The notes beneath the pieces are model-generated. The model ran no database searches, was not told the origin of the DNA, and was given only the letters and a program-made list of their open reading frames with translations. 64,000 nt of DNA, from contig JAFZLL010000051.1 of NCBI GenBank assembly GCA_017551505.1, forward strand, positions 1-64,000, read 5' to 3'. The position numbers and the translations under genes were made by a program. Below are positions 9,346 through 22,243 of this stretch, piece after piece; positions within the stretch are counted from its first letter, which is position 1; each line of letters starts with the position of its first letter. Source of the DNA: Eubacteriaceae bacterium (lineage in GTDB: Bacteria > Bacillota > Clostridia > Eubacteriales > Anaerofustaceae).

Positions 9346-9625
9346 AAAAGAGGCTTCCGTAACCTGAATACGGGCAACTTTTAAGCAAATATATATACTC
9401 GTCAATATTACCACCAATATGCTGTTTTATGAAGAATTATCCGCTAATTAATCCCATATCCCGAGTAAAAAGAGCTATATCCCGGGCCACAGGCTAAAAG
9501 ACCGTTACGTTCCGTTATGAACGGCATCCGTTCGCTGTCTTACGGGGCACTCATCGTTACAGAACTGAAACTGGCTGCAACAGTACATGGATGCATCTGC
9601 TTCATTACTATGGGCCATATTTGAA
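9346..9625. other. rpsO-pnp intergenic region, possible pnp leader
   Basis: No gene is visible. Toward pnp there is a short inverted repeat at 9519-9533 (6-bp arms, 3-base loop), with further copies of a CCGTT element just beside it at 9502-9515. In many bacteria the pnp leader is a structured target for PNPase/RNase III autoregulation; whether that applies here is only a guess. Confidence 0.35.
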
Positions 9626-9660
9626 ATAAAGAACGGCGCAACCGAAAGTTGCGCCGTTTC
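9626..9660 (-). terminator. Terminator between rpsO and pnp
   Basis: An 11-bp perfect GC-rich stem (9632-9642 with 9648-9658) around a 5-base loop. On the minus strand it is followed by CTTTATTT. It would separate rpsO from pnp, at least in part. Confidence 0.85.
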
Positions 9661-9734
9661 TTTAAGTACTTTTCTGAATTCTGTCAGAAAGCTTTTGCTT
9701 CCTCCCGCTTATACGCAGGAAACCATTATCGATA

Positions 9735-9992
9735 TTACTTTCTGAGTCCCAGTGATTCGATGAGCTTACGGTAGGCTTCGATGTCCTGTTTCATCAGGTA
9801 GTTGAGAAGCCTTCTTCTTTTGCCGACCATTTTGAGAAGCCCCATCCTGGAATGGTTGTCCTTGGGATTCTCCTTCAGGTGCCCGTTGAGCAGGTTGATC
9901 CTCGCTGTCAGGATAGCTACCTGAACTTCGGGTGAGCCTGTGTCGCCTTCATGTTTGCCGTATTTTTCGGCAATCTGCTGTCTATCGATCAT
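9735..9992 (-). CDS. rpsO: 30S ribosomal protein S15
   Basis: Primary 16S rRNA-binding protein of the 30S platform, 85 residues. It contains the [11 protein letters not shown] segment, the [10 protein letters not shown] helix and the [22 protein letters not shown] region that contacts rRNA. The ATG at 9992 is set by AGGAGG 5 bases upstream; a longer reading to 10034 only translates the leader. It has a promoter at 10075-10102 and a leader that can fold against its own ribosome binding site. Confidence 0.97.
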
Positions 9993-9996
9993 ATTT

Positions 9997-10062
9997 CCTC
10001 CTGTATGGATAGATATCCGCCGCTGACCGGACACGCGCTGGAGGAGCGCCGAATCAGGTCAG
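9997..10062 (-). promoter_or_regulatory. Candidate S15 autoregulatory leader (rpsO 5' UTR)
   Basis: In the mRNA, CUGACC (10062-10057 read on the minus strand) pairs with GGUCAG (10028-10023), enclosing a hairpin with a 5-bp stem (10049-10045 with 10039-10035) whose 5-base loop is CCUCC (10044-10040). That loop is an exact complement of GGAGG in the rpsO Shine-Dalgarno at 10002-9997. A loop-SD pseudoknot would block initiation. Ribosomal protein S15 represses its own mRNA through structured leaders in several bacteria. Confidence 0.5.
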
Positions 10063-10074
10063 GGTAGCTTAAAA

Positions 10075-10102
10075 ATTATATCACCTTTCTATGGCTAAGC
10101 AA
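10075..10102 (-). promoter_or_regulatory. Promoter for rpsO
   Basis: On the minus strand TTGCTT (10102-10097), a 16-base spacer and TATAAT (10080-10075). Transcription would begin near 10068, giving a leader of about 76 bases. Confidence 0.65.
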
Positions 10103-10116
10103 GCTTTTTTGCCAAT

Positions 10117-11616
10117 TTATAGGTCATAAAGATCGGTATATTTTTCCGTAAGGTAATCGGTGAAGTAATGGGGATCGAATTCCTCGCCGCAGGCCATCTT
10201 CAGCAGGTCTCCGGGATCATACATGCGGCAGTGCTGGTAGATGCGTTCAGTCAGCCATCCTGTAACTCTGGAAATATCTCCCTTTGCAACATCTGCTGTC
10301 ACGTCAAAGTCCTTCTTCATATGGTAGAGCATCTGCGCGCCGTATGCAGAGCCGAGTGCATATGAGGGGAAGTAACCTATGCTGCCTCCGGACCAGTGTG
10401 AATCCTGAAGTACGCCGTTCCTGTCGTCCGGTACGTCTACTCCGAGATATTCTTTCATCTTTTCGTTCCAGAGCTCCGGCAGATCCTTGACTTCAGCCTT
10501 TCCGGACATCACCGCTTTTTCGATCTCGTAGCGCACCATGATATGCAGGGGGTATGTCAGCTCGTCTGCGTAAATCCTTATGAGAGATGGTTCGCTTTTG
10601 TTTATCGCCCTGTAAAAGTCCTCTGCAGTGTGTCCTGCTGTCTGTTCCGGGAATATCTCGCTGAGCTTCGGGAAGATATAGCCTATAAATTCCCTGCTGC
10701 GCCCGATGAGGTTCTCGTAAAAACGGGACTGGCTTTCATGGATGCTCATCGAACTCCCTCCAGCTATGGCCGTTCCTTCGTATTTCTCTCCTGCATGAAG
10801 CTCGTACAGAGCGTGGCCTCCTTCATGGATCACCGAGTACATCGAACGGGTAAAATCGTTCAGATGGTAATGTGTGGTGATGCGGACGTCCTTCTTGTTG
10901 AAGCCTGTAGTGAAGGGATGTTCTGTCTCACCTATAATGCAGTGGGTCTTGTCGATTCCTATCACATCCATAAGGTAGGAAGAGAACTCCCTCTGCTTAT
11001 CGATGGGGTAGGCCAGATTCACGAAATCGGAATCGATCTGTTCTTTTTCGGAAATCTGCTTGATCAGCGGAACAATCTTTTCCCTCAATCCGGAGAAGAA
11101 CTTGTCCAGCATCTCCTTGTTCATGCCTTTTTCGTATCTGTCGAGCAGTACGTCGTATGGATCCTCGTCAGGCTTATAGTATTTGGCGAAACGCTTGTTG
11201 GAATCAAAGATCTCCTGCAGCAGAGGCTCGAAGGAAGCGAAGTCGCTGTTTTCCTTAGCTTTGTGCCATACCGCGTCAGCGTCATTGAGAAGCATACGGT
11301 AGCGTACGTATTCGTCTGCGGGGATGCTCCTCGTGTATTCGTTCCTTTTGTCGAATTCGGTCACCTCCCTGGCAGTAAGCTCGTCAAGTTCGTCCAGATG
11401 TTCTTTCAGATATGCGACTGCCTGCTGGGTCTTTTCTCCGGCTGTGAGGTCATAGGTATAGCGCGAAAGTATACCCATCGATTTGCCTCTGCCTTCAGCG
11501 GAATCAGAAGGCGCTGTAGTAAGTGCGTCATACGACATGATGCCCATGGCGTGCTGGAATGCGTGGAGTTTCTCCACAACGTCCCTAAAATCTTTTTTGG
11601 CTGTTTCAAGATCCAT
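10117..11616 (-). CDS. M32 family metallocarboxypeptidase
   Basis: Zinc carboxypeptidase of family M32 (Taq carboxypeptidase type), which removes C-terminal residues from peptides. The zinc motif is HEGGH (about residue 266), where many relatives have HEFGH; the downstream HESQSRFYENLIGRS stretch supplies the third metal ligand. The length of 499 residues is normal. AGGAGG lies 5 bases before the ATG at 11616. It starts 18 bases after nagA stops, so the two are probably co-transcribed. No signal peptide is present, so it is cytoplasmic. Confidence 0.94.
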   Translation of the reverse strand: MDLETAKKDFRDVVEKLHAFQHAMGIMSYDALTTAPSDSAEGRGKSMGILSRYTYDLTAGEKTQQAVAYLKEHLDELDELTAREVTEFDKRNEYTRSIPADEYVRYRMLLNDADAVWHKAKENSDFASFEPLLQEIFDSNKRFAKYYKPDEDPYDVLLDRYEKGMNKEMLDKFFSGLREKIVPLIKQISEKEQIDSDFVNLAYPIDKQREFSSYLMDVIGIDKTHCIIGETEHPFTTGFNKKDVRITTHYHLNDFTRSMYSVIHEGGHALYELHAGEKYEGTAIAGGSSMSIHESQSRFYENLIGRSREFIGYIFPKLSEIFPEQTAGHTAEDFYRAINKSEPSLIRIYADELTYPLHIMVRYEIEKAVMSGKAEVKDLPELWNEKMKEYLGVDVPDDRNGVLQDSHWSGGSIGYFPSYALGSAYGAQMLYHMKKDFDVTADVAKGDISRVTGWLTERIYQHCRMYDPGDLLKMACGEEFDPHYFTDYLTEKYTDLYDL

Positions 11617-12855: not shown

Positions 12856-12884
12856 TTGAAAACGGCATGATCATGTTGTATAAT
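12856..12884 (+). promoter_or_regulatory. Consensus promoter with almost no leader before the VWA gene
   Basis: TTGAAA at 12856-12861 and TATAAT at 12879-12884, spaced by exactly 17 bases. The expected start site (about 12890-12892) lies only 2-4 bases before the ATG at 12894, and there is no Shine-Dalgarno, so the transcript would be leaderless. Confidence 0.7.
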
Positions 12885-12893
12885 ACTTAAGAT

Positions 12894-14240
12894 ATGGACG
12901 TTACGGATAAAACCCGCAGGCTATGCGAAGAAATACTGAATATGTGCCGTGCCAACCTCTTCATAAAGCTGAGGTACCTTGATATAGCTATATTCAATTT
13001 TGAATTCCTCTGCGATGAGTTTACCGATACCGTCGCCGGCGACGGAGTGAACTACCACTACAACCCCGAATATATTTTCGCTTCTTATAAAAAGGGCAGG
13101 GGAAAAGTCGCCGCGGACTACCTGCACTGTGTGCTGCACTTTGTTTTTAAGCACCCCTTTGTGTCACCTTCAATAGACCGGCGGCTGTGGAACCTTTCCT
13201 GCGATATAGCCTCGGAGACCATCGCTGCATCAATAGGGATAGACGACAACGAGCCGGAGAGACGTGAGGAAGAAAAAGCCGCCTCGGAAAAGATAAGATC
13301 CGTTACAGGTCTGATTACCGCAGAAAAAGTGTATGACTACTTTCATACCACTCCGGTCACTGAGGACGAGCTGGTCAGTCTGGAGGAGCTTTTTACGCGC
13401 GATTCCCACGAGCTCTGGTATCCCGAAGAGGACAGGAGCAAAAGCGAAGGGAACGGCAGTGAGAAGAACGAGACCGGCGGAGGAGGAATGCCGAGCCTGA
13501 CCGAACAGGAATGGGAGGATATCAGCCGCCGCGTTCAGATCGATCTGGAAAGCGACAGCGATAGGTACGGAGACGCTGCGGGAGGTATCGTTCAGAATAT
13601 CGAGGAGGTCACCCGCGACAAAGTCGATTATTCCTCTTTTTTAAGGAAATTTGCCCGCAGGCGTGAAAGGATGAAAATAAACGAGGACGAGTTTGATTAT
13701 ATCTTCTACAGCTACGGGCTGCAACTCTACCAGAATATGCCATTAATAGAACCGTTGGAATACAAGGAGATCGATCAGATCAGCGAATTCGTGATCGCTA
13801 TAGATACTTCCGGAAGCTGTCACGGCAAGACTGTGCAGCAATTCCTCAACAAGACCTATTCGATCCTGATGGACACCGAAAGCTTTTTCACAAAGGTGAA
13901 TATCCATATCATTCAGTGTGACGCGGCTGTACAGAACGATTACAAGATCACTTCCAGAAAAGAATTCGATGACTATATCAGAGATATGCCGCTGTCCGGA
14001 TTCGGGGGCACTGATTTCCGTCCCGTGTTCGAGTACACGGACAGGATGATTGAAAACAAAGAGCTCAAACGCCTCAACGGGCTCATATACTTCACCGACG
14101 GCAGAGGCCGCTTTCCTCAGAAGGCGCCTGCTTATCCGGTGGCTTTCATCTTTGTAGAAGAGAATAAGAAAAAACCGGAGGTCCCTCCCTGGGCGATGCA
14201 GCTGGTGCTCACCGAAGGAGACATAGCGAACTTAAGATGA
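12894..14240 (+). CDS. VWA-like domain protein, DUF2201/COG3864-type
   Basis: Cytoplasmic protein of 448 residues with the two-domain plan of the DUF2201 family: an N-terminal predicted metallopeptidase-like domain and a C-terminal von Willebrand A-like domain. The VWA metal site (MIDAS) looks intact: DTSGS near residue 304, GGTDF near 370 and FTDGRG near 400. In the N-terminal domain the expected HExxH reads HCVLH (His78, Cys79, His82), so the catalytic Glu is missing. A charged, low-complexity linker lies around residues 175-205. The stop overlaps the start of the LRR gene by 4 bases, and a MoxR ATPase follows, the usual partner of VWA proteins. Confidence 0.82.
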   Translation: MDVTDKTRRLCEEILNMCRANLFIKLRYLDIAIFNFEFLCDEFTDTVAGDGVNYHYNPEYIFASYKKGRGKVAADYLHCVLHFVFKHPFVSPSIDRRLWNLSCDIASETIAASIGIDDNEPERREEEKAASEKIRSVTGLITAEKVYDYFHTTPVTEDELVSLEELFTRDSHELWYPEEDRSKSEGNGSEKNETGGGGMPSLTEQEWEDISRRVQIDLESDSDRYGDAAGGIVQNIEEVTRDKVDYSSFLRKFARRRERMKINEDEFDYIFYSYGLQLYQNMPLIEPLEYKEIDQISEFVIAIDTSGSCHGKTVQQFLNKTYSILMDTESFFTKVNIHIIQCDAAVQNDYKITSRKEFDDYIRDMPLSGFGGTDFRPVFEYTDRMIENKELKRLNGLIYFTDGRGRFPQKAPAYPVAFIFVEENKKKPEVPPWAMQLVLTEGDIANLR

Positions 14241-15886
14241 GCGATTTCGTTTTCAATGGCAGCGTCATAGTTTCCTATTCGGGTACCGCTTCCTCAATAG
14301 TCATTCCTGAAGGCGTGACAGGGATCGCCGCCGAAGCTTTCCGTCGAAACAAAGCCATCACGAGCATAGCGATGGCAAAAAGTGTTGAGATCATCGGCGA
14401 AGGTGCATTCAACGGCTGCGAGAACCTCGAGAGGGTATCGTTGTGGGGCGGTGTTAAGGAGATATACAGGGAGGCTTTTGCCAATTGCCGCTCCTTAAGA
14501 GAGGTGAATATTCCCCGCCACTTGGAAAAACTGGGGGCTTTTGCCTTTTATAATTGCCGCGGTCTCAAAAACGTGACTCTTCCCAGAACCCTTGCGGAAT
14601 TGGGGAAGAGCGCCTTCGAGGCATGCAGGGGGCTGACCCAGCTGACTGTATCCCAAGGGATAACAGCCCTTCCGGAAAGAGCGTTTTACGGATGCCCGTC
14701 ACTTTCCATCGTAAACCTGCCGGAAGGCCTCACGACTATAGGAGTGGAGTGTTTTTCAGGCTGCCGCAAACTGGATGGGATAGTCTTTCCCCAGTCCCTG
14801 ACGCTTATCGACCGCCAAGCGTTTTTCGACTGTGTAGGGCTTTCTTCCCTTAAGATATCCAATCCTTCTATGATCATTGGCCCCGGTGCATTTGCCGGAT
14901 GCGTATCACTCAAGGAGGTCAGTCTCCCTGAGCAGGGCTGTCGCATATCCTCAAAAGCGTTCAAGGACTGCATAGGTCTTAGAGACGACAGGGGGCTGGT
15001 GACCGTTAACGGCACGGTCTTTTCCTACTATGGTGCGGAAGCGTATTACGAAGTCCCTGACGGTATAAAAGAGATCGGAGACGAGGCTTTTGACGGCTGC
15101 ACTACCATCCACAGGATAGATCTTCCCGACACCGTCAGGCGGATTGGAGAGAATGCCTTCCGCGGATGCGTCAATATGAAGAGCATCAATGTCCCGTCCT
15201 CGCTGAAAAGGATCGCCTCAACCGCTTTTGAGGGCTGCTGCCCGGAGAAACTGATAATGCCCGACGACAGCCAGGTCGGACTGCGCGACATAGGCATGCT
15301 GAGGTTCCTAAATCTGAACGGCGACCCGTTCTTGGACTTCGACGCTCTTGCTGAGAATATCTGGCAGTTCACTGATAGCTCCGTAAAACGAGATATCCTA
15401 TCGGAGCTTTTTGAAAGGAGAGAGTCCCTTAAGGATTCTTCCGTGGAAAAATGCGAGGATCTCATGATGCGGTATTCTGTATACATCGACGACGCCAAGG
15501 GCGTATGTGCGCTTTTGGAAGACGGGGGCAGGTTCATAGACCCAGCATGCTATGCGGCGCTGGCTGCTGACTATTCTTCGGCAGAGGCAAGCGCGGCTAT
15601 ACTCAAGTACCTTGCTGCCAGAGGAAAAGAAGTGTACGAATTGAAGGAAGATATCATGACTCCGGGCAAATGCTGCGTTATGGTGCTCTTCGACAATATG
15701 GAAACAGTCAAATGCAACAGCTCCGTTCAGGTACGTGTAGGGGACAGTGTCGAGGCGGATGGCCGATACGAGGGAATCAGGGGCAGAGTTGTTCAGATAG
15801 TGAACGACTCGCAGAAATCACGCTACAGACTGCCTGATATACTCAGGGCTTACAGGATAAGCTATACAGCAGACATGGAATTATAA
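14237..15886 (+). CDS. Cytoplasmic BspA-type leucine-rich repeat protein
   Basis: 549 residues. Roughly residues 15-255 and 270-345 are a tandem array of about 12 LRR_5 (BspA/TpLRR) units of about 23 residues with the pattern of a hydrophobic strand, then AF, then xxC, then L. The remaining 200 residues have no recognisable repeat and end in a small beta-rich part (EGIRGRVVQIV). There is no signal peptide or anchor, unlike most BspA-like proteins, so it should act inside the cell. It is translationally coupled to the VWA gene (ATGA overlap) and lies 13 bases before the MoxR gene. It may be a binding scaffold or substrate adaptor. Confidence 0.8.
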   Translation: MSDFVFNGSVIVSYSGTASSIVIPEGVTGIAAEAFRRNKAITSIAMAKSVEIIGEGAFNGCENLERVSLWGGVKEIYREAFANCRSLREVNIPRHLEKLGAFAFYNCRGLKNVTLPRTLAELGKSAFEACRGLTQLTVSQGITALPERAFYGCPSLSIVNLPEGLTTIGVECFSGCRKLDGIVFPQSLTLIDRQAFFDCVGLSSLKISNPSMIIGPGAFAGCVSLKEVSLPEQGCRISSKAFKDCIGLRDDRGLVTVNGTVFSYYGAEAYYEVPDGIKEIGDEAFDGCTTIHRIDLPDTVRRIGENAFRGCVNMKSINVPSSLKRIASTAFEGCCPEKLIMPDDSQVGLRDIGMLRFLNLNGDPFLDFDALAENIWQFTDSSVKRDILSELFERRESLKDSSVEKCEDLMMRYSVYIDDAKGVCALLEDGGRFIDPACYAALAADYSSAEASAAILKYLAARGKEVYELKEDIMTPGKCCVMVLFDNMETVKCNSSVQVRVGDSVEADGRYEGIRGRVVQIVNDSQKSRYRLPDILRAYRISYTADMEL

Positions 15887-15899
15887 GGGGAGGCTGAAG

Positions 15900-17411
15900 A
15901 TGAACATCAAACAGGCAAAGGACCAGGTGGAAAACGCTATACGCGCATATCTCAGGAAAGACCGCTTCGGCAGGTATCTGATACCGTCGGAAAAACAGCG
16001 CCCGCTGTTCATAGTCGGGCCTTCTGGCATCGGCAAAACGGCAATCGTACGCCAGACTGCGAGCAAGATGGGCATAGCTCTCGTGACTTACTCGATGACC
16101 CACCATACCAGGCAGAGCGCCATCGGGCTGCCTTATATCGTCAAGAAGAATTACGGGGGCAGAGAATACTCGGTATCTGAATACACGATGAGTGAGATCA
16201 TCGCGGCTGTATATGATGCGATGGAAGAAACAGGTCTGAAGGAAGGCATCCTCTTCCTGGATGAGATCAACTGTGTATCCGAAACTCTTGCTCCGGCGAT
16301 GTTGCAGTTCCTGCAGTACAAGGTGTTTGGCAGGCACAGGGTCCCGGATGGCTGGGTGGTAGTTACCGCAGGCAACCCTCCCGAATATAACGATTCCGTC
16401 CGCGAATTTGACATAGTGACTCTGGATCGTCTCAAGATCATCAATGTCGAGGCGGATCTGAATGTATGGAAGCAGTATGCCTACGAAAAGGCAGTCCACG
16501 GTTCGATCATGGCATATCTGGAAGTAAGGAAGTCGGATTTCTATATCTTCGAATCCACTCCCGAAGGAAAGAGCTTCGTTACAGCCAGAGGCTGGGAGGA
16601 CCTTTCCGATATGATAAAGCTCTATGAGCTGTTGGACATACCGGTGGACTTCGACCTTATCAGTCAGTACATACAGAACAAGAAAACGGCAAAGGATTTC
16701 GCCGTCTATTACGAGCTCTACCGCAAGTATTCCGCGGATTACAGGGTAGGGGAGATACTTTCCGGCAATGCTTCCCAGTCGATAAGATCAACTCTGCGTC
16801 GCGCGAGGTTCACGGAAAGGCTCTCCCTTCTGGGTCTGCTCATCGATGATATCTCCGCCAGCTGCAGGGAACTTGCTTCCCTTAAGTCGCTGCTCTCGGA
16901 ACTGTACCCTATGCTCATGCAGATCAGGGAGGCATCCATGTCAGGAAGTGAGACTTCCTCCCTGCTTGAAGAGAAGATCAACGCACTTAACGAAAAGGTC
17001 ATGACGCTCAACAAGGCCGGAATACTCACCAAGGAAGAGAGCGATATGCTGTCTTCAGCCAGGGAGTTCTTGGAGGACTGCATGAAAGCGGTCTCTTTCG
17101 GCAATTTCGCCGACGAAGCTTCGCGCTTCCAAACCGTTCGCGACGCTTTCTCCAAAAAGATCGAAGAAAAAAATGCCCTCGTTAAGGAGATAGGCATCAA
17201 GATGGAGAATATGTTCGCTTTCCTGGAAGACGTATTCGGTGAGGGCCAGGAGATTCTGGTGGCTGTCAGCGAGCTCACCGCAAACCCGTACAGCGCTGTA
17301 TATATCGCTTCCTACGGCTGCGAGAGCTATTCGAAACACAATAAGGAACTGCTCTTCTTTGAAAGAGAGATAGAATTGGCAAGCCAGGCTGACGAGATCA
17401 GCGAGATATAA
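15900..17411 (+). CDS. MoxR-family AAA+ ATPase
   Basis: 503-residue AAA+ ATPase. The Walker A GPSGIGKTA is at about residue 39, the Walker B GILFLDEIN at about 113 and the sensor-1 region VTAGNPPEYN at about 157. The C-terminal 200 residues are helical and partly coiled coil, longer than in a minimal MoxR. MoxR ATPases act with VWA proteins to remodel or activate target complexes, and the upstream gene supplies such a partner. GGGGAGG lies 7 bases before the ATG. It is the third gene of the VWA-LRR-MoxR unit; its target is unknown. Confidence 0.85.
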   Translation: MNIKQAKDQVENAIRAYLRKDRFGRYLIPSEKQRPLFIVGPSGIGKTAIVRQTASKMGIALVTYSMTHHTRQSAIGLPYIVKKNYGGREYSVSEYTMSEIIAAVYDAMEETGLKEGILFLDEINCVSETLAPAMLQFLQYKVFGRHRVPDGWVVVTAGNPPEYNDSVREFDIVTLDRLKIINVEADLNVWKQYAYEKAVHGSIMAYLEVRKSDFYIFESTPEGKSFVTARGWEDLSDMIKLYELLDIPVDFDLISQYIQNKKTAKDFAVYYELYRKYSADYRVGEILSGNASQSIRSTLRRARFTERLSLLGLLIDDISASCRELASLKSLLSELYPMLMQIREASMSGSETSSLLEEKINALNEKVMTLNKAGILTKEESDMLSSAREFLEDCMKAVSFGNFADEASRFQTVRDAFSKKIEEKNALVKEIGIKMENMFAFLEDVFGEGQEILVAVSELTANPYSAVYIASYGCESYSKHNKELLFFEREIELASQADEISEI

Positions 17412-18176: not shown

Positions 18177-18198
18177 AACGGCTGAAGGCCGTTTTTTT
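18177..18198 (+). terminator. Terminator after tRNA-Ser
   Basis: AACGGC (18177-18182) pairs with GCCGTT (18188-18193), followed by a T run. Confidence 0.75.
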
Positions 18199-18286
18199 GT
18201 CCGCCGCTGATAGAATTCGGCACAAATGTGTCTTTGCGGTTGCTACATGGGCAGATAACCTGTATTATAATCTCAGAGGTCGTAGG

Positions 18287-19006
18287 TTGGGAAAACTAAG
18301 ATACCGCACGGAACTGAAATATCTCATAGATCTGAAGGAATACGCCGTCCTTAAGAGCGGCCTTTCCGCCGCCTTCAAGCGTGACCCGTATTCTCTTGAG
18401 AACGGAGGGTACGGCATACGCAGCCTTTATTTTGACGACGTCTACGATACGGATTATTTCACAAAGCTCTCCGGAGTGCTGGAAAGAAAGAAATACCGCA
18501 TCAGGATGTACAACAACGATCCGTCCCTGATCAAGCTTGAGAAGAAAGTCAAGGTCAACAACGCTTCATATAAGCTTTCCACCACGATAACTAGGGAACA
18601 GGCGGAGAGCATGATCTCCGGGGATTACGGTTTCATGCTGGACAGTGACAACGAGCTGCTCAATGAGATCTACGTCGCCAATGCGCACAGGGTCCTGCGC
18701 CCAAGCGTAATAACCGATTATTTCCGTGAGGCATTCATCTATGAGCCGTTCAACGTACGCATAACCTTTGACGAGCATCTGGCAACGGGGCTTATGAGCG
18801 ACGACTTCTTCCTTCCTGATCTCTCTCTGCTGCCGGTGACTTCACCGTCACAGATGATCCTGGAAGTCAAATATGACGAGGCACTGCCTACGGTGGCCAA
18901 GGATCTGCTGAGCTGCGTGGATAAGACAGTCATAGCCGTCTCAAAGTTTACGGCTTGTAAAAGATATATAGCCTTGAATGGCTGGGAGGTAGAAAAATGG
19001 GGATAA
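18287..19006 (+). CDS. VTC domain protein (polyphosphate polymerase-like)
   Basis: 239-residue protein with a VTC/CYTH-like triphosphate-tunnel fold, the catalytic domain of eukaryotic polyphosphate polymerase Vtc4. The charged strands that line the tunnel are visible: RYRTELKYL, RSLYFDD, RKKYRIRMY, KLEKKVK, DYFREAF, RITFDEHL and LEVKYDEALP. The TTG at 18287 is chosen because AGAGGT lies 6 bases upstream and because it gives a family-like N terminus; a longer reading begins inside the tRNA terminator. It overlaps the next gene (DUF4956) by 10 bases and heads the VTC-DUF4956-CotH set. Activity on ATP is likely but unproven. Confidence 0.85.
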   Translation: MGKLRYRTELKYLIDLKEYAVLKSGLSAAFKRDPYSLENGGYGIRSLYFDDVYDTDYFTKLSGVLERKKYRIRMYNNDPSLIKLEKKVKVNNASYKLSTTITREQAESMISGDYGFMLDSDNELLNEIYVANAHRVLRPSVITDYFREAFIYEPFNVRITFDEHLATGLMSDDFFLPDLSLLPVTSPSQMILEVKYDEALPTVAKDLLSCVDKTVIAVSKFTACKRYIALNGWEVEKWG

Positions 19007-19674
19007 AGGATATCTTCAACAAACAACTATTCGATGAATACATGACCCTGAACGCTCAGATCACACCTAAGCTCATGCTGGTGACTTTGGCAGTCGTTGC
19101 AGGACTCGTCCTGCTCCTGCTGGTCGTGTACAGGCTCACTTTCAAAGGGGCGCTCTATTCTTCGTCTTATGCGATTTCCATGCTCCTTTCAGCCATGGTG
19201 ACCGCGCTTATCATTATGCCGATATCATCAAACATCGCACTTTCAATAGGCACCGGCGGCGTATTGTCGATGGTGCGCTATCGTACTGCCGTGAAGGATC
19301 CCCGGGATATCGCCTTCATGTTCTGGGCTGTAGCTATAGGACTGACATGCGGGATCGGATTCTTTCTGGTCGCACTTGTCGGATCCGTTTTCATCGGCGC
19401 CCTGATCATCGTGGCCGACCTGCTGGCCAACCTTTCCAAGGGCGTCTCGCCCTGCGTGGCGGTGATACGCCTGTCCGACTCTTCTGCGGTAGAAATGGTA
19501 AAGAAGATCCTGAGTTCCTCGAATATCAAGTCGATAACACTCAATAACGACACTACCGAGGTCACTATGGAGCTTAAAAAGCTCCCCGGCCAAAAGGCAC
19601 TGAATGCCCTCAAGGCAAGCGACAAGGTCATAAATACTGCCTTCATCAAATATAACGGAGATCTGGCTTTATAA
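18997..19674 (+). CDS. DUF4956 integral membrane protein
   Basis: 225 residues. Four to five transmembrane segments span roughly residues 22-46, 52-75 and 95-145, followed by a cytoplasmic domain of about 80 residues with an SSNIKSITLNNDTTEVTMEL-type alpha/beta pattern. A conserved loop, SMVRYRTAVKDPRDIAFMFW, lies between segments. DUF4956 proteins are repeatedly found beside VTC and CotH genes. Here the gene overlaps the VTC gene and ends 1 base before the CotH gene, so the three are one transcription unit. It may pass or house the product of the VTC enzyme; that is inference. Confidence 0.82.
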   Translation: MGIKDIFNKQLFDEYMTLNAQITPKLMLVTLAVVAGLVLLLLVVYRLTFKGALYSSSYAISMLLSAMVTALIIMPISSNIALSIGTGGVLSMVRYRTAVKDPRDIAFMFWAVAIGLTCGIGFFLVALVGSVFIGALIIVADLLANLSKGVSPCVAVIRLSDSSAVEMVKKILSSSNIKSITLNNDTTEVTMELKKLPGQKALNALKASDKVINTAFIKYNGDLAL

Positions 19675-19675
19675 T

Positions 19676-22243
19676 ATGCAGTCTGACAACAAAGCTAATA
19701 ACAGCAAAGGAAATAAGGTTAGGACGGTCTCTTCGCCCGTTAAAAAAGTCCGTACAGTAAGGAAGAGCGCCTCTTCCCGCACGAAGCTTTTCATCAAAGC
19801 CACCATGGTGGTCTTCCTTTTCGTTGTCCTTGGCCTGATCCTCACTAAATCACCCAACGGGACCTCCGAGGTTCCCGAATACCGGATGAGCGTAATCATC
19901 AGTGAGGTCTGCTCTTCAGGCCAGAAGTCGCTTTATGACGATGACGGGGATTTCTCAGATTATATCGAGCTGTACAATACTACAGACGAGGATATAGACC
20001 TGACAGGATGGTATCTTTCGGATAATCCCGCAAAACTGAGGAAATACGTTATCCCTTCCTGCACTATTAAAAGCGGAGAGTATTTGATAATCTTTGCTTC
20101 CGGCAAGAATAAGAGCACGGGGTATATCCACTCGAATTTCAAGCTTTCGGAAGGGGAATTACTGTCGCTCTATTCCCCGGGACTGGTAAAGGCGGATTCC
20201 GTCACTGTTCCTCATATGCCGGACAATATGTCCTACGGACGGGATCATGAAGACATCACCAAATGGAAATATTTTACAGTTCCTACACCAGGGCTCCCGA
20301 ATAAGACAAAGGGCTTTGAAAGTATCGAAGAAGCGGCCGGCCGTAAAGGCGGGCCGTTAATTATCAGTGAGGCGGTCAGCGCCGTTACGGGCGGAGAAGA
20401 CTGGATAGAGATCGCCAATATCAGCGGCGAGGATGTGGATCTCACGGGATGGTATCTCTCCGACAGCTTCAACAAGCCTCAGAAATGGGCTTTCCCCGAT
20501 GGAACCAGGATCTCTGCGAACGGTTATCTCATCGTTTACGCATCAGGTCGGTTCAACCGTGTGGAAGGGGAGATCAACGCTACTTTTAAGCTGGACAAAT
20601 ACGATGAGGAGATAGTCATTTCCTGGGGAAATGTCGTGATGGACGTAATGGAATACGGGGTCATGCGTGCCGATACATCGATCGGAATCATCAGTGCTGA
20701 CGATCCTCGCAAAGTCTATTACACTACTCCTTCTCCCGGGAAGGCCAACGGTGAAGGTATCGCGGGCTTTTCTCCCCAGGTCTTTTTCCGCAACCCTACG
20801 GGACAGTACAAGGACAGCGTTACCGTCGATCTGTTCTGCCTTGAGCCGGGCGCGGTGATCCACTATACGCTGGACGGCTCCCGCCCGACAAGTCAATCCA
20901 AAGTCTATACCGGTCCTTTCGAAGTCACCGCCAATGCAACGGTCAGGGCTATGTCCGTGATGGATGGACGTCTGGACAGCTATATCACCACAGCCAATTA
21001 TCTGATCAATACACACCATGCCCTGCCTATAGTATTCATAGCATCGGAGCCGAATAACTTTTTTAACGGCGGCATCTATAACAGCATATATTCGGACAGA
21101 CGCAGGGTCCCGGTCAACGTTACACTGCTGGAGACAGACGGTTCCGGTTTCAGCGAGGACGCCACGATCAATAAACATGGCAATATGACCGTTTTTGAAG
21201 CGAAAAAATCCATGAGCGTCAACTTTACGGAGACCGTCGGGCATTCTCGGATCGAATATGACCTGTTCCCCGATGATGATACAAGGGCAAAGGATTTCGG
21301 GAATTTCCTCCTTCGTTCCGGAGGAAACGACTGGGACGACCTGATGATCAAAGACGGTGTGCTCCAAACGCTGGGTGCTACTCAGATGGATCTGGATTAT
21401 CAGGGTTTCCGCCCGTGCGTCGTTTATATCAACGGCCAGTACTGGGGTCTGTATAACATCAGGGAAAAGGAGAATGAGGAGTACCTCAGCAGCTACTACG
21501 ATATCAACGAAAAGAATGTCGATATCATATCCTTCGGCCACGGGGTCCATTCCGGCTCATATACGGAATACTGGAAATTCATCGGATTTATCCGTAGCGC
21601 AGACCTGAACAACGCGGACAACTGGAAGCGTGTAGAGAGTATGATGGATGTGGACAATATGATCGACACCTACCTCATGCATATATACTACTCGAATTTT
21701 GATACGGTCAACCTGAAATGGTGGCGTGAGAATAAGGAAGGCGCTAAATGGCGCTGGTTCACCTACGACCTGGATTATGCGATCTATGTACCGGCACAGA
21801 ACAACCTGCAGCTGATCACAAACCCTGCCGGCCACGGTGTCAATAACTATTTCGATTCATCGCTAATATACAACCTGATGAAATCCAATTATTTCAGACA
21901 GAGGTTCCTGGAACGGCTATCCAGTTACTGGCCGACGATCTTCAATACTGATCAGATTCTCACATACTGGTATTCCCGTTTCGAAGAGATAGCTCCTGAG
22001 GTGAACGACAATCTGAAAAGATGGAACATCAGCCGTGCCCATTTCCAGTCTGAAGCTCATCAGGCCTATGATTTCCTCTGCCGCCGTCCGGAGCTTTTCC
22101 GCCAGATGGTCAAGAATTATTTCGGTTTATCCGATGCTCAGCTCAACAAGCTTCTCCCCAAGCAGACGGTGACAGTTAAGGAGATGGATGTCCTGAAGGT
22201 CATAGACGAGGCGGAGGAACGCGTGAAGAACGGACAGCAGTAG
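19676..22243 (+). CDS. Membrane-anchored CotH kinase-like protein with lamin-tail domains
   Basis: 855 residues. A basic N-terminal tail is followed by one transmembrane segment (about 36-57), which places the rest outside. Two lamin-tail domains (about 70-185 and 225-345) share the pattern DLTGWYLSD. A chitobiase-C-like beta domain (about 365-440; YTLDGSRPT) follows. The CotH domain (about 455-780) has KHGNMTVFEAKKSM, VYINGQYWGLYNIREK and WRWFTYDLDYAIY, the last holding candidate metal-binding Asp residues. CotH of Bacillus is a spore-coat protein kinase with an atypical kinase fold. The substrate here is unknown, and the VTC/DUF4956 neighbours suggest a link to polyphosphate or cell-surface assembly. 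Confidence 0.85.
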   Translation: MQSDNKANNSKGNKVRTVSSPVKKVRTVRKSASSRTKLFIKATMVVFLFVVLGLILTKSPNGTSEVPEYRMSVIISEVCSSGQKSLYDDDGDFSDYIELYNTTDEDIDLTGWYLSDNPAKLRKYVIPSCTIKSGEYLIIFASGKNKSTGYIHSNFKLSEGELLSLYSPGLVKADSVTVPHMPDNMSYGRDHEDITKWKYFTVPTPGLPNKTKGFESIEEAAGRKGGPLIISEAVSAVTGGEDWIEIANISGEDVDLTGWYLSDSFNKPQKWAFPDGTRISANGYLIVYASGRFNRVEGEINATFKLDKYDEEIVISWGNVVMDVMEYGVMRADTSIGIISADDPRKVYYTTPSPGKANGEGIAGFSPQVFFRNPTGQYKDSVTVDLFCLEPGAVIHYTLDGSRPTSQSKVYTGPFEVTANATVRAMSVMDGRLDSYITTANYLINTHHALPIVFIASEPNNFFNGGIYNSIYSDRRRVPVNVTLLETDGSGFSEDATINKHGNMTVFEAKKSMSVNFTETVGHSRIEYDLFPDDDTRAKDFGNFLLRSGGNDWDDLMIKDGVLQTLGATQMDLDYQGFRPCVVYINGQYWGLYNIREKENEEYLSSYYDINEKNVDIISFGHGVHSGSYTEYWKFIGFIRSADLNNADNWKRVESMMDVDNMIDTYLMHIYYSNFDTVNLKWWRENKEGAKWRWFTYDLDYAIYVPAQNNLQLITNPAGHGVNNYFDSSLIYNLMKSNYFRQRFLERLSSYWPTIFNTDQILTYWYSRFEEIAPEVNDNLKRWNISRAHFQSEAHQAYDFLCRRPELFRQMVKNYFGLSDAQLNKLLPKQTVTVKEMDVLKVIDEAEERVKNGQQ

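Follow-up and report, generated by a model that had tools for sequence, protein, structure and literature searches.

A Clostridia operon of MoxR, VWA and LRR genes as a candidate three-part remodelling machine with an exchangeable recognition protein

The window analysed here is a stretch of 64,000 nucleotides, positions 1 to 64,000 of contig JAFZLL010000051.1 of a Eubacteriaceae bacterium (GCA_017551505.1). Positions 12894-17411 hold three genes that lie head to tail on the + strand, in the order VWA, LRR and MoxR, with the following features:

12856..12884, + strand: sigma-70-type promoter TTGAAA-N17-TATAAT, ending 9 bases 5' of the ATG, a layout shared with congener L045
12894..14240, + strand: VWA protein gene, 448 aa, with an N-terminal zincin-like domain and a C-terminal DUF2201 VWA domain (Pfam; AF2 model; Foldseek)
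13125..13154, + strand: HxxxHxxxxH motif (H78, H82, H87), with C79 at the position of the catalytic Glu (alignment of relatives)
13782..14213, + strand: VWA domain with complete MIDAS (DTSGS 304-308, T373, D402; Pfam, alignment of relatives)
14237..15886, + strand: LRR protein gene, BspA-type LRR_5, 549 aa (ORF list; Pfam)
14264..15271, + strand: LRR region, about 12-13 repeats of 23 residues (Pfam; repeat count)
15335..15628, + strand: predicted helical region, residues 367-464, at the position of the family helical domain, with homology not demonstrable (AF2 fragment)
15629..15883, + strand: C-terminal beta-rich tail, HAS-barrel-like, below the Pfam cut-off
15900..17411, + strand: MoxR-like AAA+ ATPase gene, 503 aa, with a C-terminal extension of ~200 residues (Pfam; alignment)
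16017-16040, + strand: Walker A (alignment of relatives)
16248-16265, + strand: Walker B (alignment of relatives)

The ATG of the LRR gene overlaps the VWA stop codon as ATGA, a 4-base overlap, and the 13-base gap between the LRR and MoxR genes contains ggggagg, confirming the tight coupling of three genes described in an earlier sequence-only reading of this DNA. The consensus promoter noted in that reading matches 11 of 12 consensus positions, a quality reached by six sites in the 64 kb. L045, the sole congener with the operon, has proteins 55-70% identical to those of the window (66% for VWA) and carries TTGAAT and TATAAT with a spacer of 17, also 9 bases from the ATG; because the layout and this distance are kept despite the protein divergence, the promoter is probably real. 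The operon transcript is probably nearly leaderless, as the -10 element lies only 9 bases before the ATG in both genomes. Shortly 3' of the trio (18197-22243, + strand), VTC-domain, DUF4956 and CotH-kinase/lamin-tail genes stand in a row.

The VWA protein contains both a DUF2201_N putative metallopeptidase domain and a DUF2201 VWA-like domain by Pfam, which together with a full MIDAS place it among the DUF2201 VWA-like co-chaperones. The MIDAS residues D304, S306, S308, T373 and D402 are all present and are invariant across 33 relatives, in agreement with its earlier description as a MIDAS-bearing protein. The AF2 model (pLDDT 85) has a VWA fold, matched by Foldseek to integrin I domains, VWF A2 and Rpn10, and a PDB sequence search found no relative of the protein. 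The VWA domain sits at the C-terminus with nothing beyond it, leaving no C-terminal effector. The zincin-like N-terminal domain had been overlooked in the sequence-only reading. Within it H78, H82, D104, E108, D170 and H172 are invariant in the 33 relatives and H87 is nearly so, and the HExxH glutamate of zincin metallopeptidases, which follows the first histidine, is replaced in the window by C79. This glutamate is absent from all 33 relatives and all 78 readable named loci (0/111 in total), whereas ordinary DUF2201 relatives keep it (13/13 cellular and 71/72 readable viral loci), as does the borderline relative L222, which has no LRR gene beside it (HEVLH). This distribution indicates that loss of the glutamate accompanies gain of the third gene. 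The domain would most likely act as a metal-structured binding domain rather than as a protease.

The MoxR protein is matched by the Pfam families AAA_5 (39.6 bits against a cut-off of 22) and AAA, and its AAA+ core is complete, with Walker A (GPSGIGKT), Walker B (ILFLDE) and sensor 1 (AGN) conserved across 31 relatives. Among named MoxR models the nearest is bpMoxR, which scores 21.6 bits on the window protein, under its cut-off of 27, and which matches every one of the 31 members with E<0.01. A conserved THHTRQSAxGLP...EYTMSEII stretch falls, by sequence alignment only, at the place of the helix 2 insert of the MoxR core. A PDB sequence search with this protein returned generic AAA+ proteins only.

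The third protein of the window is recognised by Pfam and NCBIfam as LRR only (LRR_5, E 5e-90 in Pfam). Its reading as a cytoplasmic LRR protein of about 12 repeats is upheld: 12-13 repeats were counted and no signal peptide, hydrophobic N-terminus or membrane segment was found, so that it lacks the signal peptide or anchor of a secreted BspA-like adhesin. Pfam and PADLOC revealed no enzymatic or toxin domain in it. Residues 367-464 are predicted to be all-helical (regional pLDDT 66-88, with 61 for the whole AF2 fragment), at the position where relatives carry the helical domain described below. The profile of that domain gave 0.3 bits on the window protein, under shuffled controls, and hhalign comparison of the two was weak (E 0.004, probability 8%); assignment of the domain by sequence was rejected on these grounds, and one alignment-based match was circular, as the alignment includes the window protein. 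Judged from its position and a low-confidence model, the region may be a divergent or replaced docking region. Foldseek with the C-terminal fragment gave nothing meaningful, and the HAS-barrel-like tail occurs among trio proteins only in the window and L045.

The same genome (a 1.56 Mb draft) encodes a second close VWA protein, also missed earlier, in a cluster on contig C57 ordered LRR-VWA-LRR-LRR-MoxR (L004), with VWA and MoxR proteins 48% and 51% identical to those of the window and three LRR proteins. LRR_5 occurs in only three places in this genome, two of which are the VWA/MoxR clusters. The remaining LRR_5 ORF, of about 400 aa (L005, about 9545-10749, contig C38), is solitary, adjoins metK and a radical-SAM gene and by eye lacks the helical domain. 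A 151-aa helical protein is encoded directly 3' of the C57 MoxR gene (L004:3515-3970), and a divergently oriented gene for a NACHT/STAND-like ATPase of 544 aa lies by the cluster (L004:52-1686).

In 63 genomes of the order and 393 of the class, 34 close loci were found, and in 29 of them the VWA gene is accompanied by an LRR gene. In 26 of these 29 the LRR gene lies directly beside VWA, MoxR or another LRR gene; it is one gene away in L076 and 5-6 kb away in L073 and L074. A scan of GTDB species genomes returned more than 580 relatives, and among the best 80 loci, 51 had enough flank to judge, 46 of them with an LRR gene or linked helical domain. Carriers include Oscillospiraceae, Lachnospiraceae, Ruminococcus flavefaciens, Mogibacterium, Faecalicatena contorta, Pseudoflavonifractor capillosus and Alkalibacter mobilis, and elsewhere in the phylum, outside this class, four loci also have the trio. 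Five related loci (L067, L129, L141, L165 and L181) showed no third gene beside VWA and MoxR. The LRR-less pair of L129 (5089-7483) is close to CRISPR type III-looking genes (CARF-like and Cas6-like, by eye).

Ordinary DUF2201 loci differ in this respect. None of 18 cellular ones from the same order and class sample has an adjacent LRR gene (in L089 a large LRR ORF lies about 6 kb off), and among 80 viral loci with an ordinary DUF2201 VWA, 52 have MoxR and none has an LRR gene or helical domain. The sequence-only reading had proposed the LRR gene as an unusual third partner, a proposal that would fall if the gene were missing beside most orthologous pairs. It is indeed missing beside the distant, ordinary DUF2201/MoxR pairs, but it stands beside most VWA loci of this clade, where the frequencies above, the second cluster and the co-transfer described below establish the trio as a conserved unit. 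Clostridia are rich in BspA-type LRR genes, and the relatives commonly have LRR_5 genes, so that such genes might have come to lie beside MoxR/VWA pairs by chance. This is refuted by the comparative data and has next to no probability, given that 29/34 and 46/51 loci stand against 0/18 adjacent and 0/80 in ordinary pairs, and that two of the three LRR_5 places in the genome are at VWA/MoxR pairs.

Gene order within the module is variable, the LRR gene lying before, between or after the VWA and MoxR genes, and at least 35 changes of arrangement are required on a FastTree tree of VWA. That the genes have stayed linked through so many rearrangements speaks most strongly for their functioning together. 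Apart from promiscuous transporters and clade-specific genes, no further conserved neighbour that could be a client or effector was found in 119 loci, and no PADLOC model of a known defence system fits. Carriage by phages or plasmids was considered and rejected, as neither plasmids nor IMG/VR contain close VWAs. The only close VWAs labelled as phage come from seven short unannotated 'Bacteriophage sp.' human fecal contigs (MT837836.1, MT839739.1, MT837937.1, MT836813.1, MT835935.1, MT838983.1 and MT837993.1), which are probably bacterial fragments deposited as phage.

Most third-gene proteins have in common an unannotated helical domain of ~75 residues, identified with iterated profiles (113 ORFs, pooled set) and missed by the sequence-only reading. 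In most cases it forms the C-terminal part of the protein, but L054 has it at the N-terminus and L068 in the interior. Ankyrin repeats come before it in L148 and L179, as does DUF4132 in L138, whereas in L176 and L194 it is followed by DUF6273; in L069 it stands alone in an LRR-less protein in the place of the third gene. The 393 class genomes include 22 with the domain and 28 with a close VWA, the latter a patchy distribution; 21 have both, seven VWA only, one the domain only and 364 neither (Fisher p 7e-28). A PDB sequence search with the domain gave faint ankyrin-like similarity. The domain represents an unannotated family that marks the third subunit.

One motor can be accompanied by as many as four LRR genes, or more. 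Loci with several of them, such as L066 and L004, would suit one motor with many clients, and known MoxR/VWA pairs activate partner complexes (PMC9976466), as expected if the LRR protein were a client or effector that MoxR and VWA fold, load or switch and that then acts elsewhere. We regard this as unlikely, though it deserves some weight: the window LRR protein contains no enzymatic or toxin domain that was found, and exchange of LRRs for unrelated binding repeats is more recognition-like, with the functions of DUF4132 and DUF6273 unknown.

The module also moves between genomes. Ruminococcus flavefaciens YRD2003 and XPD3002 (L144 and L152) share a ~6.5-kb trio block that is about 99.6% identical except for LRR patches of 63-80%, starting within the upstream LRR gene and stopping just past the MoxR stop codon, with both flanks unrelated. 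The recA regions of these strains are only 74% identical, indicating that the module was exchanged recently. Between the two, 4 substitutions separate the MoxR proteins and 7 the VWA proteins, while the LRR protein has about 217 in the first 500 codons and about 5 in the last 450, making these near-identical modules, which differ mainly in LRR patches, a natural allele swap. No tRNA gene was found in the 21-kb stretches that contain the L144 module (L144:6101-12911) and its L152 counterpart. L140 and L218 likewise share a module-sized block, 87% identical, that ends at the MoxR stop codon. The LRR protein is the least conserved in all six locus pairs compared and MoxR the most or equal most, giving a conservation rank of MoxR > VWA > LRR. 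The C-terminal part of the third protein is not uniformly constant, as the C-terminal 110 residues are more variable than the LRRs in L052/L053 and L073/L074. Nearly all windows of the alignments have dN/dS <1, so that exchange of segments together with relaxed or diversifying change is what the data show, and positive selection is left unproven.

These features also bear on whether the operon, in the manner of NorQ/NorD or RavA/ViaA, encodes a fixed chaperone for the maturation of a single cellular complex, in which the LRR protein would be an unchanging subunit. The architecture of motor and VWA protein equals that of MoxR/VWA maturation pairs (PMC9976466), but such a role is improbable considering that the 119 loci share no conserved neighbouring client, that only 28/393 class genomes carry the close VWA, that the third genes are multiple and exchangeable and that module transfer is accompanied by LRR change.

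Linkage, reshuffled order, co-occurrence, block transfer, LRR-focused change, loss of the glutamate and the intact MIDAS and Walker motifs, all seen at the sequence level, argue instead for a three-part, ATP-driven MoxR/VWA protein-remodelling machine whose third protein serves as an exchangeable adaptor for recognition, the reading that we favour as reasonably likely. The MoxR protein would form the ATPase ring, and the VWA protein would cap this ring and relay the motor movement via its MIDAS metal site. The helical C-terminal part would dock the third protein onto the VWA/MoxR pair, and the LRR solenoid, or elsewhere the ankyrin, DUF6273 or DUF4132 regions, would select the target. Ring formation, docking, the order of action and the target are predictions of this scheme; by analogy, motor and cap probably work as in NorQ/NorD, with target choice given by the third protein. 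The earlier suggestion of target recognition by LRRs is thereby partly supported, since the LRR protein is the fastest-evolving in 6/6 pairs and multi-copy and its LRRs are exchangeable. The trio as a whole would be an accessory cassette that spreads horizontally as a unit while its recognition part changes.

A more specific and tentative possibility, rather less likely than the adaptor reading itself, is that the trio serves Clostridia as a mobile system for surveillance inside the cell. Exchangeable LRR or ankyrin receptors would dock via the helical domain on the shared MoxR/VWA motor and recognise proteins that are foreign or come from rivals. It would then be a bacterial counterpart of LRR immune receptors, with ATP-driven remodelling rather than a toxin as output. 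MoxR/VWA motors are found everywhere and their target choice is mostly unknown, whereas here the choice appears to lie in a separate, exchangeable gene, which could be swapped and assayed in bacteria that are common in gut and rumen, among them the cultured species Ruminococcus flavefaciens, Faecalicatena contorta and Alkalibacter mobilis.

No paper joining LRR proteins to MoxR/VWA operons was found in the open-licence literature, and the trio resembles several known systems in part. It has the LRR_5 repeats of BspA-type LRR surface proteins, but differs from them in lacking a signal peptide, in its operon with a cytoplasmic AAA+ motor and in the extra helical domain of most relatives. With NorQ/NorD, CbbQ/CbbO and RavA/ViaA it shares an AAA+ protein, here predicted to form a ring, and a VWA co-chaperone with a MIDAS. 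NorQ/NorD, in which one VWA protein plugs the hexamer pore by a VWA finger and the MIDAS contacts the client, provides the structural template (PMC9976466). Those systems have two components, a fixed metabolic client and no exchangeable repeat subunit, unlike the trio. Pairs of a DUF2201 metallopeptidase-vWA protein and MoxR have been described in jumbo phages, without an LRR partner, and proposed to be active peptidases (PMC7824862). These and the ordinary bacterial pairs have the same VWA Pfam domains and an adjacent MoxR (PMC7824862), but they keep HExxH, lack an LRR neighbour and, in cellular loci, have a MoxR of ~370 aa, while the trio has lost the glutamate in 111/111 and possesses a longer MoxR (~500 aa) as well as a third gene.

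The trio is closest in plan to the MoxR-vWA ternary conflict systems, six of which have been described: VMAP, iSTAND, FtsH and beta-propeller (PMC7159879), and iSTAND2 and TERNS3 (PMC8195603). Like them it combines a MoxR ATPase, a vWA protein and a system-defining third component, with repeat or superstructure domains and with bpMoxR as the nearest named MoxR model. It differs in that its DUF2201-type VWA protein has a zincin-like N-domain but no C-terminal effector, and in that its third component is an LRR protein, unlike those of the VMAP, iSTAND, FtsH, TERNS3 and beta-propeller systems. The hosts also differ, the trio being found in Bacillota and the ternary conflict systems, by their published description, mainly in phyla other than this one, with enrichment in multicellular bacteria. 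The trio lacks the third components of VMAP, iSTAND, FtsH and TERNS3 and has no PADLOC hit. As its third component fits none of the named systems, and as it does consist of MoxR, vWA and a third gene conserved as a unit, in keeping with the broad definition, we file the trio as a variant of the MoxR-vWA ternary kind.
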